The position numbers and the translations under genes were made by a program. A stretch of DNA of 64,000 nucleotides from Lysobacter stagni. Its GTDB lineage: Bacteria > Pseudomonadota > Gammaproteobacteria > Xanthomonadales > Xanthomonadaceae. This document shows positions 26,941 through 34,303 of the stretch, piece after piece. A model generated the notes under the pieces. It was not told where the DNA came from. It worked only from the letters and a program-made list of their open reading frames with translations, and ran no database searches. Location of the stretch: contig NZ_JASGBI010000001.1 of the NCBI RefSeq assembly GCF_030053425.1, positions 1,930,001 to 1,994,000 of the forward strand, given 5' to 3'. How positions within the stretch are numbered: the first letter of the stretch is position 1; each line of letters begins with the position of its first letter.

Positions 26941-28839
26941 ATGGGTTACGAAGAGTTCTACCGCCGTTCGATCGAACAACCCGAGGAGTTCTGGGGCGAA
27001 CAGGCGACGGCGATCCACTGGCACAAGCCGCCGGAGAAGATCCTCGAGTACTCCAACCCACCGTTCCGCAAGTGGTTCGTCGGTGGAGAGACCAACCTCT
27101 GCTTCAACGCGGTCGACCGCCACCTGGGCGAACGCGCCGATCAGCTCGCGCTGGTCGCCATCTCGTCGGAAACCAACGTCACGCGCGAGGTTACCTACCG
27201 CGAACTGCATCGCGAGGTGAGCACGTTCGCGGCGGTGTTGCGATCGCTCAACGTCGGTCGCGGCGATCGCGTCGTGATCTACATGCCCAACATGGCCGAG
27301 GCGGTGTTCGCGATGCTCGCCTGCGCGCGCATCGGTGCCGTGCACTCGGTGGTGTTCGGCGGCTTCGCGGCGCACAACCTCGCGCTGCGCATCGACGATG
27401 CACAACCGAAGCTGCTCATCTGCGCCGACGCCGGCGTGCGCGGCGGAAAGGTGATTCCGTACAAACCGCTGGTGGATGCCGCCTGCGAGGAAGCGACGAC
27501 GCCACCGCCACACGTGCTGGTGGTGGGACGCGGACTGGACCCGCAGCATTCGGTGGTGGCCAGTCGCGATGTCGACTACGCCACGCTGCGTGCGCAGTAC
27601 GACGGCGCGGAAGTCGCGGTCGAATGGCTGGAATCGAACGAGCCCAGCTACCTGCTCTACACCTCCGGCACCACGGGCAAGCCCAAGGGCGTGCAGCGCG
27701 ATGTCGGCGGTTACGCGGTCGCACTCGCGCTGTCGATGTGGTCCATCTACGACTTGCGCGCGGGGCAGGTGATGTTCTCCACGTCCGACGTGGGCTGGGC
27801 GGTGGGGCATTCGTACAACGTGTACGGCCCGCTCATCGCCGGCGCCACCTCGGTGCTGTACGAGGGGTTGCCGACGAATCCGGATCCCGCCGTGTGGTGG
27901 GGCATCTGCGAGCGCTATGGCGTGCGCACGATGTTCTCCTCGCCCACCGGCATCCGCGTATTGAAGAAGCAGGATGCGTCGTGGCTGGGCAAACACGATC
28001 TGTCGAAGCTGCGATGGCTCTTCCTTGCGGGCGAACCGCTGGATGAGCCGACCGCGCAATGGATCACCGACGGCATCGGCAAGACCATCATCGACAACTA
28101 CTGGCAGACGGAAACGGGCTGGCCTGTGTTGTCGTTGATGCCGGGACTGGAACTGAAGCCGGTGAAGTTCGGTTCGCCCGGATTGCCCACGCCCGGCTAC
28201 AAGCTGCGCGTGATCGACGACAACACCGGCGAGGACGTCCCGGCCGGACGGAAGGGCGTGCTGGTGATCGAGCCCCCGTTGCCGCCCGGTTGCCTGACGA
28301 CGGTATGGCGCGACGACGCGCGTTTCCTGTCCAGTTACTTCAGCCACTTCAAGGAACTGGTGTACAGCTCGCTGGACTGGGCGATCCGCGACGAAGATGG
28401 TTACACCTTCATCCTCGGCCGCACGGACGACGTCATCAACGTCGCCGGCCATCGCCTGGGCACGCGCGAGATCGAGGAGTCGTGCTCCACGTATCCAGGC
28501 GTGGCGGAAGCGGCCGTCATCGGCGTGCACGACGAGTTGAAGGGGCAGGTGCCGGTGGTGTTCGCCACGCTCAAGGCCAGTGCGCAGGGCGAATCGCCGG
28601 CGCAGGCGGCCGCGCGCGTGCAGCAACGCGTGGTCGAACAGCTCGGCGCGGTGGCGCGCCCGGCACGCGTGTACGTGGTCAACGCGTTGCCGAAGACGCG
28701 CTCGGGCAAGCTGTTGCGACGCTCGCTGCAGGCGCTGGCCGAAAGCCGCGACCCGGGCGACCTGTCCACGCTCGACGATCCCGGCGCGCTGGAGGAAGTG
28801 AAGCGCGCGCTGGAGCGCGGGCCGGATATCGGCGGCTGA
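26941..28839 (+). CDS. prpE: Propionyl-CoA synthetase
   Basis: This 632-residue ANL-superfamily enzyme activates propionate through an acyl-adenylate, feeding the 2-methylcitrate cycle. The start MGYEEFYRRSIEQPEEFWGE is typical of PrpE. The phosphate-binding loop TSGTTGKPKG lies at 241-250, and the acylation-regulated Lys590 lies in TRSGKLLR. The frame is open well upstream through the DUF2501 gene, but ATG 26941 matches the family start. No strong ribosome-binding site is seen. Propionate specificity over acetate is inferred from overall similarity and the prpB/prpC neighbours. Confidence 0.9.
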   Translation: MGYEEFYRRSIEQPEEFWGEQATAIHWHKPPEKILEYSNPPFRKWFVGGETNLCFNAVDRHLGERADQLALVAISSETNVTREVTYRELHREVSTFAAVLRSLNVGRGDRVVIYMPNMAEAVFAMLACARIGAVHSVVFGGFAAHNLALRIDDAQPKLLICADAGVRGGKVIPYKPLVDAACEEATTPPPHVLVVGRGLDPQHSVVASRDVDYATLRAQYDGAEVAVEWLESNEPSYLLYTSGTTGKPKGVQRDVGGYAVALALSMWSIYDLRAGQVMFSTSDVGWAVGHSYNVYGPLIAGATSVLYEGLPTNPDPAVWWGICERYGVRTMFSSPTGIRVLKKQDASWLGKHDLSKLRWLFLAGEPLDEPTAQWITDGIGKTIIDNYWQTETGWPVLSLMPGLELKPVKFGSPGLPTPGYKLRVIDDNTGEDVPAGRKGVLVIEPPLPPGCLTTVWRDDARFLSSYFSHFKELVYSSLDWAIRDEDGYTFILGRTDDVINVAGHRLGTREIEESCSTYPGVAEAAVIGVHDELKGQVPVVFATLKASAQGESPAQAAARVQQRVVEQLGAVARPARVYVVNALPKTRSGKLLRRSLQALAESRDPGDLSTLDDPGALEEVKRALERGPDIGG

Positions 28840-28979: not shown

Positions 28980-30194
28980 CTATTCCTGCGTCGGCGGCTG
29001 CACCCCCGCATACCGCGCGCGCGGCCGGATCAGGCCGCCGTGCGCCTGTTGTTCCAGCGCGTGCGCCAGCCAGCCGGCCAGACGACCCGCCGCGAACATC
29101 ACCAGTGCCGGTGTCGCGGGCAAGGCGTAGGCGTGGCAGATGGCGGCCAACATGAAGTCGATGTTCGGACGCTGGCCGCTGATCTCGTCCGTCACCTCGA
29201 CGATGCTGTCGAGTTTCTCCAGCATCGCCCGGTCGGGCATGTGCGTGCGCAGGCGTTGCAGCAGTTCTGCCGCGCGCGGGTCGCCATGCGGATACAGCGC
29301 ATGGCGGAAACCGGGCAGATCGTCGCCGCGCTGCCAACGTGCGGCGATCGAATCGCGCGGTGACGTCGCCTGCATCGCTTCGGCGATGAGTGCGTACGCG
29401 CGTGCGGTGGCGCCGCCGTGGCGTGGTCCGGACAGCGCCGCCAGTCCGCTGCACACCGTCGCGTGCAGGTGCGCACCGGTCGAGGCCACCACGCGCGCGG
29501 CGAAGGCCGACACATTGAGTTCGTGGTCCGCGCACAGCACCAGCGCGGAGCGCACCAGATCCTCGAAGGCGGCATCGTCCGGCCGCCACGTCCGCGCGAG
29601 CACACGATGCACGGGATCGATGGAGGGCGGCTGCGCGACCAGCAGCGCGGCGTTCTGGCGCAGCAGCGTCGCCGCGACGCGGTGGCGGATCTGGGGCGCC
29701 GAGTTGAACGAATGGCGTTCCTGCAGCGCGAGCAACGGGATCGCCGCCATCGTCCGCTCCAGCGGCGGCAGGCGCGCATCGCTGGCGAGGGCAGCGACCG
29801 TGTCCGGCCAGGCGGGCACCGGCATTGCGAAGGGGTCGTCGGCGCCGCAGTCCCACAGCAGACGCGCCACGTCTTCCAGGCTCGCCCCGGCACGCAGCTG
29901 CGCGATGGCCGAGTGGCCGCGGTAGTAGGGGCCGTCCGGGCGGATCAGCGAGATGCGCGTCTCCAGCACCGGCAGACCACGGTCCAGGCTCTGCGCCGCG
30001 CCCCGCGCCGCCCCGCGACCCACGCGCTGACGCTCTGCCAGCCGCTCCACGTCCTGGCGCAGATACAGGCGGCTACGGTGGTCGGGGCCCGGGCGCGACT
30101 CCAGCAGACCGCGGCTGACATAGGCATACAGCGTGGCCCGGCTGATGCCCAGAAGGCGGCAGGTGTCGCGGGCGGAAAGCAGGTCGTCGGTCAT
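28980..30194 (-). CDS. HTH domain fused to citrate-synthase domain, putative propionate regulator
   Basis: This 404-residue protein begins with a MerR/excisionase-like helix-turn-helix (SARDTCRLLGISRATLYAYV, about residues 7-26). It continues as a full citrate-synthase fold. Catalytic positions appear intact: His224 in ADHELNVSAF, His259 in GPRHGGA, His298 in GFRHALYPHGDPRA, Asp346 in NIDFMLA and Arg390. It therefore could bind, or even make, citrate or methylcitrate while bound to DNA. It is divergent from prpB with 91 bases between and convergent with prpE. The natural inference is a transcription factor that senses a methylcitrate-cycle ligand; a plain citrate synthase with an odd N-terminus is the alternative. 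Confidence 0.85.
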   Translation of the reverse strand: MTDDLLSARDTCRLLGISRATLYAYVSRGLLESRPGPDHRSRLYLRQDVERLAERQRVGRGAARGAAQSLDRGLPVLETRISLIRPDGPYYRGHSAIAQLRAGASLEDVARLLWDCGADDPFAMPVPAWPDTVAALASDARLPPLERTMAAIPLLALQERHSFNSAPQIRHRVAATLLRQNAALLVAQPPSIDPVHRVLARTWRPDDAAFEDLVRSALVLCADHELNVSAFAARVVASTGAHLHATVCSGLAALSGPRHGGATARAYALIAEAMQATSPRDSIAARWQRGDDLPGFRHALYPHGDPRAAELLQRLRTHMPDRAMLEKLDSIVEVTDEISGQRPNIDFMLAAICHAYALPATPALVMFAAGRLAGWLAHALEQQAHGGLIRPRARYAGVQPPTQE

Positions 30195-30205: not shown

Positions 30206-30233
30206 AGATTGATTGGGACGATCAAGATTGATC
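30206..30233 (+). promoter_or_regulatory. Candidate operator in the prpB divergent promoter region
   Basis: AGATTGAT occurs twice (30206-30213 and 30225-30232), 19 bases apart. The second copy lies in the palindrome GATCAA-GA-TTGATC (30220-30233). This sits between the divergent HTH-citrate synthase gene and prpB, where a regulator of both would bind. Confidence 0.5.
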
Positions 30234-30256
30234 AACCAGTGGGATGGTGCCAGATT
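30228..30256 (+). promoter_or_regulatory. Candidate prpB promoter
   Basis: TTGATC (30228-30233) and CAGATT (30251-30256) are 17 bases apart, 30 bases before prpB. The -35 box coincides with the right arm of the palindrome, so a protein bound there would cover the -35. Confidence 0.4.
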
Positions 30257-30285: not shown

Positions 30286-31167
30286 ATGAGTTCCGCTTCC
30301 AACGGCGCCCGTTTCCGCGCCGCGATTTCCGAGGAAACGCCCCTCCAGGTGATGGGTGCCATCACCGCCTACGCCGGCCTGATGGCCAAGCGGGTGGGTT
30401 ACAAGGCGCTGTACCTGTCCGGCGGCGGCGTTGCCGCCAATTCGCTGGGAATCCCGGACCTGGGCATCAGCACGATGGAAGACGTGCTCACCGATGCGCG
30501 TCGCATCGTCGACGCCACCCAGATGCCGTTGCTGGTGGACATCGACACCGGCTGGGGCGGCGCATTCAACATCGCGCGCACAGTGCGTTCCTTCATCAAC
30601 GTCGGCGTCGCCGCCGTGCACATGGAAGACCAGGTCGGCCAGAAGCGTTGCGGTCACCGCCCCGGTAAGGAAGTGGTGCCGACCAGCGAAATGGTCGATC
30701 GCATCAAGGCCGCCGTGGACGCGCGCACCGACGCCGGCTTCGTGATCATGGCGCGCACCGACGCCGCCGCGACCGAAGGCGTCGACGCCGCCATCGAGCG
30801 TGCCGTGGCCTACGTGGAAGCGGGCGCCGACATGATCTTCCCCGAGGCGATGAAGACGCTGGACGACTACCGCCGTTTCAAGGCCGCGGTGAAGGTGCCG
30901 ATCCTGGCCAACCTCACCGAGTTCGGCTCGACGCCGTTCTTCACCACCGACGAGCTGCGCGAGGCGAACGTGGACATCGCCCTGTACTGCTGCGGTGCGT
31001 ACCGCGCGATGAACAAGGCCGCGTTGAACTTCTACGAGACCGTGCGCCGCGAAGGCACGCAGAAGAACATCATCGACACGCTGCAATCGCGTGCCGACCT
31101 GTACGACTTCCTGGGCTACCACGCGTACGAGGACAAGCTCGACGCCTTGTTCGCGCGCGGGAAATAA
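30286..31167 (+). CDS. prpB: 2-methylisocitrate lyase
   Basis: This 293-residue enzyme of the isocitrate-lyase superfamily splits 2-methylisocitrate into pyruvate and succinate, the last step of the 2-methylcitrate cycle. The active-site Cys122 in KRCGHR and the metal-binding DIDTGWG (85-91) are visible. ATG 30286 ([13 protein letters not shown]) follows an AGGAG site; an in-frame upstream GTG is rejected. It is the first gene of the prpB-prpC unit, divergent from the putative regulator. Confidence 0.95.
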
Positions 31168-31417: not shown

Positions 31418-32569
31418 ATGTCCGACACCAACCCGGTCCTGCCCAAGGCCAAGAAATCCGTCGCGCTCAGCGGCACCGCGGCGGGCAACACCGCGCTGTG
31501 CACCGTGGGTCGCAGCGGCAACGACCTGCACTACCGCGGCTACGACATCCACGACCTGGCGACCAAGTCGACGTTCGAGGAAGTCGCCCACCTGCTCGTG
31601 CACGGCGCGTTGCCGACCGTTTCGCAGCTGAAGGCCTACAAGGCCAAGCTCAAGCGCCTGCGCGGCCTGCCGGCGATCGTGTCCGAGGCGCTGGAGCTGG
31701 TGCCCGCCAACGCGCATCCGATGGACGTGCTGCGCACCGGCTGCTCCGTGCTGGGTACGGTGCTGCCCGAGCGCGAAGGCCATCCTGCCTCGGAAGCGCG
31801 CGACATCGCCGACAAGCTGGTCGCCAGCTTCGGCTCGATGCTGCTGTACTGGTGGCACTTCACCCGCAACGGTCGCCGCATCGACGTGGAGACCGACGAC
31901 GATTCCGTCGCCGCGCACTTCCTGCACCTGCTGCACGGCGAAGAGCCGTCGCAGCTGCACGCCGACTCGCTCGACAAGTCCCTCATCCTCTACGCCGAGC
32001 ACGAGTTCAACGCGTCCACCTTCACCGCGCGCGTGATCGCCGGTACCGGTTCGGACCTGCATTCGTGCATCACCGGCGCCATCGGCGCGCTGCGCGGCCC
32101 GAAGCACGGCGGCGCGAACGAAGTGGCGATGGACATCATCGCGCGCTACGGCACGGCCGACGAAGCCGAAGCCGACATCCGCGCACGCATGGAGCGCAAG
32201 GAAATCATCATCGGCTTCGGCCACCCGGTGTACACCATCGGCGATCCGCGCAACCCGATCATCAAGGAACTCTCGCGCAAGCTGTGCGCCGACGGCGGAA
32301 ACCAGACGCTGTTCGACGTGTCCGAGCGCATCGAGAACCTGATGATGGACACCAAGAAGATGTTCCCCAACCTCGACTGGTACAGCGCATCGGCCTACCA
32401 CATGATGGGCATCCCGACGCCGATGTTCACGCCGCTGTTCGTCATCGCACGCACCACCGGTTGGAGCGCGCACGTGATCGAACAGCGCGAGGACGGCAAG
32501 ATCATCCGCCCGAGCGCGAACTACGTCGGCCCGGAAGACCGCGCGTACGTGGCGATCGACAAGCGCTGA
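31418..32569 (+). CDS. prpC: 2-methylcitrate synthase
   Basis: This 383-residue enzyme condenses propionyl-CoA with oxaloacetate. Citrate-synthase catalytic residues are present: His195 (AEHEFNAS), His230 (GPKHGGAN), Asp320 (NLDWYSA), with [13 protein letters not shown] between. The short length and PrpB neighbour favour methylcitrate synthase over TCA citrate synthase. A GAGGAGG site (31402-31408) fixes the start at 31418; the open frame upstream is rejected. The 250-base gap from prpB contains no gene and no convincing promoter or terminator by eye. Confidence 0.93.
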
Positions 32570-32590
32570 TCGTTGCGTTTCCGTGACACG

Positions 32591-32617
32591 AAAAGGCCGC
32601 GCACTGCGCGGCCTTTT
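32591..32617 (+). terminator. Bidirectional intrinsic terminator after prpC
   Basis: AAAAGGCCGCGC (32591-32602) pairs with GCGCGGCCTTTT (32606-32617) around ACT, with a further T downstream. It would work on either strand. Confidence 0.9.
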
Positions 32618-32749
32618 TCGTTCCAGAAGCAGAGCGCGGATGCTGAACGACATGGCGATGCAGGACTTCACGCTGGCGCAACGGGCCGCGTGAAGAATCC
32701 ATCAGGCCCGCCGCGCGGGTGGGCGCACCTCCACCCCCGGGAGATCGTC

Positions 32750-34303
32750 ATGGCACAGAAGAAGGCCCCCGCGAAAAGCGGGCGCGGCACATCGCAAACT
32801 GGCTCATCGAGCAAGCCGAACATCCTGGTCATCTTCGGCGACGACATCGGCATCCCGCAGATCAGCTTCTACACGCGCGGGCTGATGGGTTACCAGACAC
32901 CGAACATCGATCGCATCGCCAATGAAGGCGCGATGTTCACCGATTCATACGGCCAGCAGAGCTGCACAGCGGGGCGCGCATCCTTCATCCTGGGGCAGGA
33001 ACCGTTCCGCACCGGTCTGTTGACCATCGGCATGCCGGGCGACCCGCATGGCATCGCCGACTGGATGCCGACGATTGCCGACGTGATGAAGTCGCAAGGC
33101 TATGCGACCGGCCAGTTCGGGAAAAATCATCTGGGCGATCAGGATCAGCACCTGCCGACCAATCATGGATTCGACGAGTTCTTCGGCAACCTCTACCACC
33201 TCAACGCCGAGGAAGAACCCGAGGGCTATTTCTATCCCAAGGATCCGAAGTTCCGGAAGAAGTACGGTCCGCGTGGCGTGATCCACTCATACGCGGGTGG
33301 CAAGATCGAGGACACCGGCCCGCTGAATACCAAGCGCATGCCGACCGTGGATGAGGAATTCCTCGGTGCCGCGCAGAAGTTCATCAAGAAGAGCGTCAAG
33401 GCGGAGCAGCCGTTCTTCGTGTGGTTCAACACCACGCGCATGCACATCTTCACCCACCTGAAGAAGGAATCGGTGGGCAAGAGTGGCAAGGGGCTGCACG
33501 CCGACGGCATGGTCGAGCACGACGGCCACGTCGGCCAGTTGCTGGACCTGCTCGACGAACTGGACATCGACGACAACACCATCGTCGTCTACACCACCGA
33601 CAACGGCGCGGAGATCGCGTTGTGGCCCGATGGCGCGATGACCATGTTCCGCGGTGAGAAAGGCTCGACCTGGGAAGGCGGATTTCGCATCCCCATGGCG
33701 ATCCGCTGGCCGGGCGTGATCAAGCCGGGTACGGTGGTCAACGATCCGATCTCGCTGATCGACATGTTCCCGACGTTATGCGCGGCCGCGGGCGTTCCGG
33801 ACGTCAAGGAACAACTGGCCAAGGGCGCCACGTTCAACAAGAAGAAGTTCAAGGTGAAGCTGGATGGCTTCAACTTCATGCCGTACTTCCAGGGCAAGGA
33901 GCAGAAGGGACCTCGCGACGCGATCTTCTATTTCGACCAGGGCGGCAACCTCAACGCGTTGCGGTTCCAGGACTGGAAGCTGAGTTTCGCGATGCAGTCG
34001 CACGGCAACATCGCCACCGGTTCGCGAACCGTCACCAATTGGGCGCTGATCGCCAACCTGCGCATGGACCCGTACGAACGGGGGCAGGACGAAGGTGGAG
34101 GCGCGGTGGATTTCCTTGCACGGCAGATGTGGTTGATCGTGCCGGTGATGGGCGCGATCAAGGCATTCTTCTCCGACTTCACGGATTACCCGTACCAGGC
34201 GGGCAGCTCGCTCAACGCAGCCGGGATCAATTACGGACTGCTCAAGCAGGCCGATGCCCTCAAGCGGCTGAAGCAGGTGGAGTCGCTGCATCCCAGCAGC
34301 TGA
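32750..34303 (+). CDS. Sulfatase with CTAGR active-site motif, no signal peptide
   Basis: This 517-residue alkaline-phosphatase-superfamily sulfatase begins MAQKKAPAKSGRGTSQTG. The metal-binding FGDDIG lies at 29-34. The formylglycine motif is CTAGR (Cys72-Arg76), an Ala variant of the CxPxR consensus. YTTDNGAEIALW and RGEKGSTWEGGFRIP carry later metal and sulfate ligands. Most bacterial sulfatases are exported, but no signal peptide or lipobox is visible, so it may be cytoplasmic. The ribosome-binding site is a weak GGGAG. No sulfatase-maturating enzyme gene is seen nearby. Substrate is unknown. Confidence 0.88.
   Translation: MAQKKAPAKSGRGTSQTGSSSKPNILVIFGDDIGIPQISFYTRGLMGYQTPNIDRIANEGAMFTDSYGQQSCTAGRASFILGQEPFRTGLLTIGMPGDPHGIADWMPTIADVMKSQGYATGQFGKNHLGDQDQHLPTNHGFDEFFGNLYHLNAEEEPEGYFYPKDPKFRKKYGPRGVIHSYAGGKIEDTGPLNTKRMPTVDEEFLGAAQKFIKKSVKAEQPFFVWFNTTRMHIFTHLKKESVGKSGKGLHADGMVEHDGHVGQLLDLLDELDIDDNTIVVYTTDNGAEIALWPDGAMTMFRGEKGSTWEGGFRIPMAIRWPGVIKPGTVVNDPISLIDMFPTLCAAAGVPDVKEQLAKGATFNKKKFKVKLDGFNFMPYFQGKEQKGPRDAIFYFDQGGNLNALRFQDWKLSFAMQSHGNIATGSRTVTNWALIANLRMDPYERGQDEGGGAVDFLARQMWLIVPVMGAIKAFFSDFTDYPYQAGSSLNAAGINYGLLKQADALKRLKQVESLHPSS

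Follow-up and report, generated by a model that had tools for sequence, protein, structure and literature searches.

The window, a 64,000-nucleotide stretch of the Lysobacter stagni genome, carries a gene that joins a helix-turn-helix (HTH) domain to a citrate synthase (CS) domain and is transcribed divergently from prpB and prpC. We refer to this gene and its homologues as HTH-CS. The features of the locus are as follows.

28980..30194, minus strand: HTH-citrate synthase (HTH-CS) gene, 404 aa, proposed regulator
30024..30182, minus strand: winged HTH domain, HTH_17, residues 5-57 (Pfam and structure model)
29019..29981, minus strand: citrate synthase domain, residues 72-392
30208..30233, minus-strand reading GATCAATCTTGAT-N7-ATCAAT: operator-like element, recognised by conservation
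30209-30213 TTGAT, 30221-30225 ATCAA, 30228-30232 TTGAT and 30231-30235 ATCAA, plus strand: half-sites of the element
30228..30233, plus strand: presumed prpB -35, TTGATC, within the operator-like element (consensus reading only)
30251..30256, plus strand: presumed prpB -10, CAGATT
30286..31167, plus strand: prpB, methylisocitrate lyase (NF008455 and TIGR02317, over cut-off)
31418..32569, plus strand: prpC, 2-methylcitrate synthase (NF009006, over cut-off)
26941..28839, plus strand: prpE, propionate-CoA ligase, convergent with the HTH-CS gene (TIGR02316, over cut-off)

We used profile scores and a structure prediction, made for the monomer only, to assess the domain composition of the window protein. 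It exceeds the Pfam cut-offs for HTH_17 (37.5 bits against 27) and for the citrate synthase family PF00285, and the predicted structure contains a winged HTH as well as the citrate synthase fold. The first-pass annotation was thus right to join an HTH to a full citrate synthase fold and to place the gene divergent from prpB-prpC. The winged HTH_17 domain is related in type to the HTH of the MerR family, but the MerR models themselves stay below their cut-offs (MerR_1, narrowly, 19.7 against 21.6; MerR, 19.2 against 28.2). A search of solved structures with the HTH alone returned a single weak match, SkgA (7cla, E 0.8). Tyr23, Tyr25, Ser27 and Arg28 of the HTH are invariant in all 77 aligned sequences. 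The protein also falls short of the PrpC models (TIGR01800, 147.4 against 421.3 bits; NF009006, 125.5 against 550 bits) and of every one of the 21 NCBIfam citrate-synthase-type cut-offs listed, and PrpR_N is found neither among its Pfam matches nor anywhere in the window genome. We dropped a frame or assembly accident as an explanation, as at least 120 homologues among the matches listed have the same fusion. Their database names are 'citrate synthase' or 'citrate synthase family protein'.

Downstream of prpC, at 32573-34303, lies an arylsulfatase-like gene whose best NCBIfam match scores 91 bits against a cut-off of 481. The place after prpC is occupied by acnD in three related loci (L117-L119) and, by eye, in L006; the acnD of the window genome is at C1:2779944, 0.8 Mb from the prpC locus.

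The HTH-CS gene is divergent from prpB in 45/45 loci drawn from the family of the window and its close kin, with 97-310 bp between the estimated start codons. These loci comprise 16 from database records (for one, placement goes no further than order) and 29 from genomes; four sequences occur twice. Every one of the intergenic gaps, and that of the window, contains GATCAATCTTGAT-N7-RTCAA. Gap rows were aligned on a 13-mer, and none was dropped for lacking it. Across the 42 distinct gap sequences GATCAATCTTGAT is invariant, as is the TCAA seven bases further on (mostly ATCAA, in a few cases GTCAA). Most other columns vary, save those of another block, cAATcTGgCACc, that is compatible with a prpB -10; the arrangement TTGATC-17-CAnATT is present in 39 of the 42. 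No clear promoter for the HTH-CS gene itself could be discerned in the window. One locus, L040, has a 310-bp gap with two copies of the element 218 bp apart, one near each gene, and reads as a divergent promoter region that has undergone natural duplication.

The element is unique in the 3.9-Mb window genome when up to three mismatches are allowed, the single match being the window site, and we therefore dropped a wider regulon in this genome. Control of its acnD was likewise dropped because the site is absent there. A pattern with the spacer one base shorter gave six other matches; the one viewed (L062) lies inside a gene read by eye as rmlB.

We extended the analysis to 149 genomes of the family. 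prpB is present in 148, a near-full-length HTH-CS in 31 (one copy split over two contigs) and PrpR_N in 16, and in no genome do HTH-CS and PrpR_N occur together. Raw homology matches to HTH-CS are found in 148/149 genomes but include PrpC and GltA, and hence are not a count of HTH-CS. The hypergeometric probability of the mutual exclusion is 0.019 with the genomes treated as independent, though they are related, and the exclusivity is weak once that relatedness is considered. By coordinates, PrpR_N genes occupy a similar position, divergent from prpB and at most 0.7 kb away in 14 of the 16 genomes; they are 3.6 kb off in the other two (G022 and G067). In one genus (g30), HTH-CS is found in one genome and PrpR in four, and in the three loci read there, one with HTH-CS (L117) and two with PrpR (L118, L119), the regulator gene is in each case divergent from prpB. 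Dedicated control of either kind is dispensable, since in 101 of the 149 genomes prpB is present and both HTH-CS and PrpR are missing.

Absence of the gene goes with absence of the site. Two of the four same-genus genomes that lack HTH-CS have the order mdh-prpE-prpB-prpC, with prpB and prpC 91-96% identical to those of the window, and the word TCAATnTTGA is absent from both strands of the 8-9 kb read. Among the best-scoring 30 prpB loci of the 148 genomes, the word occurs within 400 bp upstream in two, both with HTH-CS, and is absent upstream in all 28 that lack HTH-CS; in many of these 28, by eye, a frame resembling mdh or prpE precedes prpB on the same strand.

The first-pass annotation had treated the fusion as a distinctive way of controlling propionate use; the prpB-linked proteins are a single branch within a far broader family. 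At a threshold of E <= 1e-45, HTH-CS is found in 34 of 299 genomes of the phylum and 19 of 154 genera, and tblastn detected a homologue in 81 plasmid records, 12 of which were retrieved. Outside the phylum there is one actinomycete and one Deinococcus locus. By database name, homologues include proteins of Xanthomonas translucens, X. protegens, Stenotrophomonas humi and Luteimonas. In a tree, 33 HTH-CS rows make up one side of a branch with SH-aLRT 99, apart from PrpC and CitA-type CS, although the method was a quick one and several branches are long. In L018, L120 and L138 the gene is split over frames or has an in-frame stop, through decay or sequencing error. Phage records gave eight citrate-synthase-like matches, all below 60% identity and at 27-36% in the five listed; OR848994.1, OR850028.1 and others carry no annotation, are labelled as phages of Listeria and Staphylococcus, and are probably host DNA.

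The pairing of gene and site also extends beyond the family. The core word TCAA[TC]nTTGA lies upstream of the HTH-CS start in 34 of 40 outside loci: within 120 bp in 11 of 14 (L019, L020 and the 12 plasmids) and within 200 bp in 23 of 26 further phylum-wide loci. In the background it is found in 32 of 26,835 stretches, and Markov resampling gave it 47 times in 28,000. The usual form of the site outside the family is GTCAATCTTGATT-N6-ATCAATATG, with a shorter spacer in L070 and L020. In 22 of the 26 phylum-wide loci HTH-CS is divergent from a CitA-type CS that is 51-58% identical to the Agrobacterium partner, and a CitA-type CS is likewise the divergent partner in L019 and L020. Other divergent neighbours among the 26 are acnD (L120) and, by eye, a CoA-transferase-like gene (L127). 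The word is absent in L130 and L143, whose neighbours are, by eye, of cation-efflux and 2-hydroxyacid dehydrogenase type, and upstream in L136, although its neighbour is a CitA-type CS. The plasmid neighbours are more varied.

L069 (A. fabrum C58) and L076 (Chelatococcus): CitA-type CS
L070 (Deinococcus): HMGL-like enzyme
L071 (Azospirillum) and L073 (Comamonas): family-III CoA-transferase
L079: MFS transporter
L077: DUF2332 protein
L075 (Acidovorax): aromatic dioxygenase
L078 (Cupriavidus): porin

In L072 the HTH-CS gene is co-directional with the genes upstream, and L074 and L080 are records without annotation. The word is absent upstream in L072, L075 and L078, the last two being the members that lack catalytic residues. 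The upstream region of L075 has, by eye, another palindrome, AGATCGAT-N6-ATCGATCT.

In the window protein His224, His259, His298, Asp346 and Arg390 are retained, as had been noted from the sequence, and Arg307 and Arg371 complete the active-site set; all seven are identical in the PrpC and GltA of the same genome. The seven are invariant in 77/77 aligned sequences, including that of the window. In a set of 53 rows built around the family of the window, His224 is kept in 52 and the other six in all. Across the 26 phylum-wide loci, His224, His259, Asp346, Arg307 and Arg390 are present in all, Arg371 in 25 and His298 in 24. A harder set of 33 sequences retains Arg307, Arg371 and Arg390 throughout, His298 in 32, and His259, Asp346 and His224 in 31 each. 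Two plasmid members, L075 (3944-5245) and L078 (3983-5227), have lost both His259 and Asp346, and L078 also His298. Both keep the HTH and CS domains and the substrate arginines, the HTH of L075 scoring 24.8 bits, below the cut-off of 27. Thus the citrate synthase fold can persist in this family without catalysis, and catalysis is therefore not needed throughout it.

A further difference concerns residue 297, within the G-F-x-H motif, in the GFGH loop, which contacts the acyl-CoA in known structures. It is Arg in the window protein and Gly in all 11 PrpC, GltA and CitA-type rows that cover the position. Among the 53 family-centred rows it is Gly in 33, Arg in 8, His in 8, Asn in 2, Asp in 1 and Ser in 1, whereas all 26 phylum-wide loci have Gly. 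The Arg speaks weakly against efficient turnover by the window protein. The first-pass description 'apparently active' is a reading of the retained residues, against which stand the Arg in place of the loop Gly and the two catalytically dead members. In the CitA-type partners themselves, Glu (in NVEF) stands where HTH-CS, PrpC and GltA have Asp346, in 4/4 aligned (L019:4799-5905, L020:4736-5884, L069:2797-3897 and L076:2765-3901). The sequence of M. tuberculosis CitA likewise has Glu for the catalytic Asp.

The window protein combines a DNA-binding domain and a ligand-type domain with a conserved site at the target promoter, which is the composition of a one-component transcription factor. A local factor of this kind is indicated by the divergent target, the site common to both promoters, the single genomic site, the use of PrpR in relatives and the variety of targets elsewhere. 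We put at roughly 80% the probability that the window HTH-CS is a one-component transcription factor with a citrate-synthase sensor that controls itself and prpBC; on this sequence evidence, it very probably acts as the switch for the propionate-degradation genes beside it. The conserved site beside prpB, the joint absence of site and gene, the presence of PrpR instead and the wider gene-plus-site pairs make it most likely that the HTH-CS proteins are a family of local transcription factors that regulate their own genes and use a citrate synthase as sensor. The regulatory interpretation of the first-pass annotation is strongly supported by the divergence, the conserved site, the replacement by PrpR and the recurrence of the same pair elsewhere. 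The use of the citrate synthase fold as a ligand sensor, the other half of that interpretation, would follow from the comparative evidence for a regulatory role.

We propose that the winged HTH at the N-terminus recognises the TTGAT/ATCAA repeats in the gap between the HTH-CS gene and prpB, and that the C-terminal domain senses a metabolite that takes part in (methyl)citrate synthesis. The recurrence of a citrate synthase enzyme as neighbour suggests that the sensor has kept the ligand of the enzyme. Citrate synthase enzymes close upon oxaloacetate, and we expect ligand binding similarly to close the CS domain and alter the spacing of the two HTHs in a presumed CS dimer. Because the element sits immediately before the start codon of HTH-CS and over the presumed prpB -35, the protein should repress its own gene, as seems likely, and control prpBC, for which either sign would fit. 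Our first choice of ligand would be 2-methylcitrate, because it has been described for other prp regulators: PMC9765439 names it as coactivator for PrpR of the Fis type and as the probable signal for P. aeruginosa, with propionyl-CoA as the signal for M. tuberculosis PrpR. Oxaloacetate, propionyl-CoA or a ternary complex would come next.

The conservation of the active site could also mean that the protein is an active (methyl)citrate synthase that regulates as well, with catalysis or substrate occupancy switching DNA binding. The seven residues unchanged in the 77 sequences and nearly so in the 53, together with His224, His259, Asp346 and Gly297 in every phylum-wide locus, fit such a trigger enzyme. 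We nevertheless regard it as a minority possibility: retention of these residues is also explained by ligand binding, a dedicated PrpC is encoded next door, the window protein has Arg297, position 297 varies among the 53 rows, His298 is lost in two of the 26 loci, and L075 and L078 retain both domains without His259 and Asp346.

The repeated pairing of a citrate synthase enzyme with a regulator of the same fold (CitA-type CS in 22/26 loci, prpB-prpC in the window's family) raises the idea that the CS domain acts through PrpC or the CitA-type CS, in a mixed oligomer that reports enzyme occupancy. This seems improbable, as a shared ligand explains the pairing equally well and members beside CoA-transferase, HMGL-like, MFS and DUF2332 genes have no other citrate synthase in their annotated 4-kb flanks. 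It is more doubtful still that the conserved site is that of a different regulator, with HTH-CS not binding it. Assignment of the site to HTH-CS draws on conservation, and that conservation follows the gene: the site is absent where HTH-CS is absent (28/28 prpB loci and 2/2 same-genus loci) and is found next to HTH-CS genes whose neighbours are unrelated. An ordinary citrate synthase isozyme with a vestigial HTH, as the database name and intact residues would have it, is the least credible reading, given the four HTH residues invariant in 77/77 sequences and an operator-like site that accompanies the gene across phyla.

As a local one-component factor, HTH-CS would share its target with PrpR of the Fis family (PrpR_N, PF06506; E. 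coli, Salmonella and Xanthomonadales) and with the GntR-type PrpR of Pseudomonas. It has neither a PrpR_N nor a GntR domain, its sensor being of citrate-synthase fold, and the presumed prpB promoter here is of the -35/-10 rather than the sigma-54 type. From PrpC and CitA-type CS (6s6f, 8s9d) it differs in sequence (24-26% identity), in its extra winged HTH and in forming a separate clade. The MerR family has a related type of HTH. MerR operators lie between a -35 and a -10 spaced about 19 bp apart, whereas the presumed prpB spacer is 17 bp (39/42) and the site covers the presumed -35 and upstream.

MocR (a winged HTH with an aminotransferase fold), BirA and PutA also join an enzyme to a DNA-binding domain, and in them, as proposed for HTH-CS, an enzyme fold serves with that domain as a metabolite sensor. 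The kind of protein is thus already known; the enzyme fold differs, and the DNA-binding domain of HTH-CS is HTH_17. Among the matches listed in open-licence full texts we found no paper on a DNA-binding citrate synthase, and Suvorova 2012 could mention the family. The regulator name 'PrpQ' gave 0 joint matches with methylcitrate and, alone, nothing relevant among the matches listed. PMC9765439, citing Suvorova 2012, states that all analysed Xanthomonadales use Fis-type PrpR; in contrast, PrpR_N is present here in only 16 of 149 family genomes.

In summary, we think it rather more likely than not that HTH-CS is an ancient and so far undescribed family of factors in which a citrate synthase paralogue came to regulate the enzyme itself (CitA-type CS or prpBC), with a complete active site and an operator core hardly altered between an actinomycete, a Deinococcus and gammaproteobacteria, and in which side branches gave up catalysis and shifted to other operons. 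In members with an intact active site, the bound ligand of the sensor may be a reaction intermediate or a product formed in situ. Because of their database names, the proteins may be listed among the TCA enzymes when metabolic models are built. Should they be regulators, one class of local organic-acid control has gone unnoticed, and propionate control would probably be explained for many Lysobacteraceae (named loci cover Lysobacter, Pseudoxanthomonas and Luteimonas) and also, by protein similarity, for some Stenotrophomonas and Xanthomonas. With its intact and catalytically dead members and a predicted operator, the family would allow the change from enzyme fold to sensor to be tested directly.
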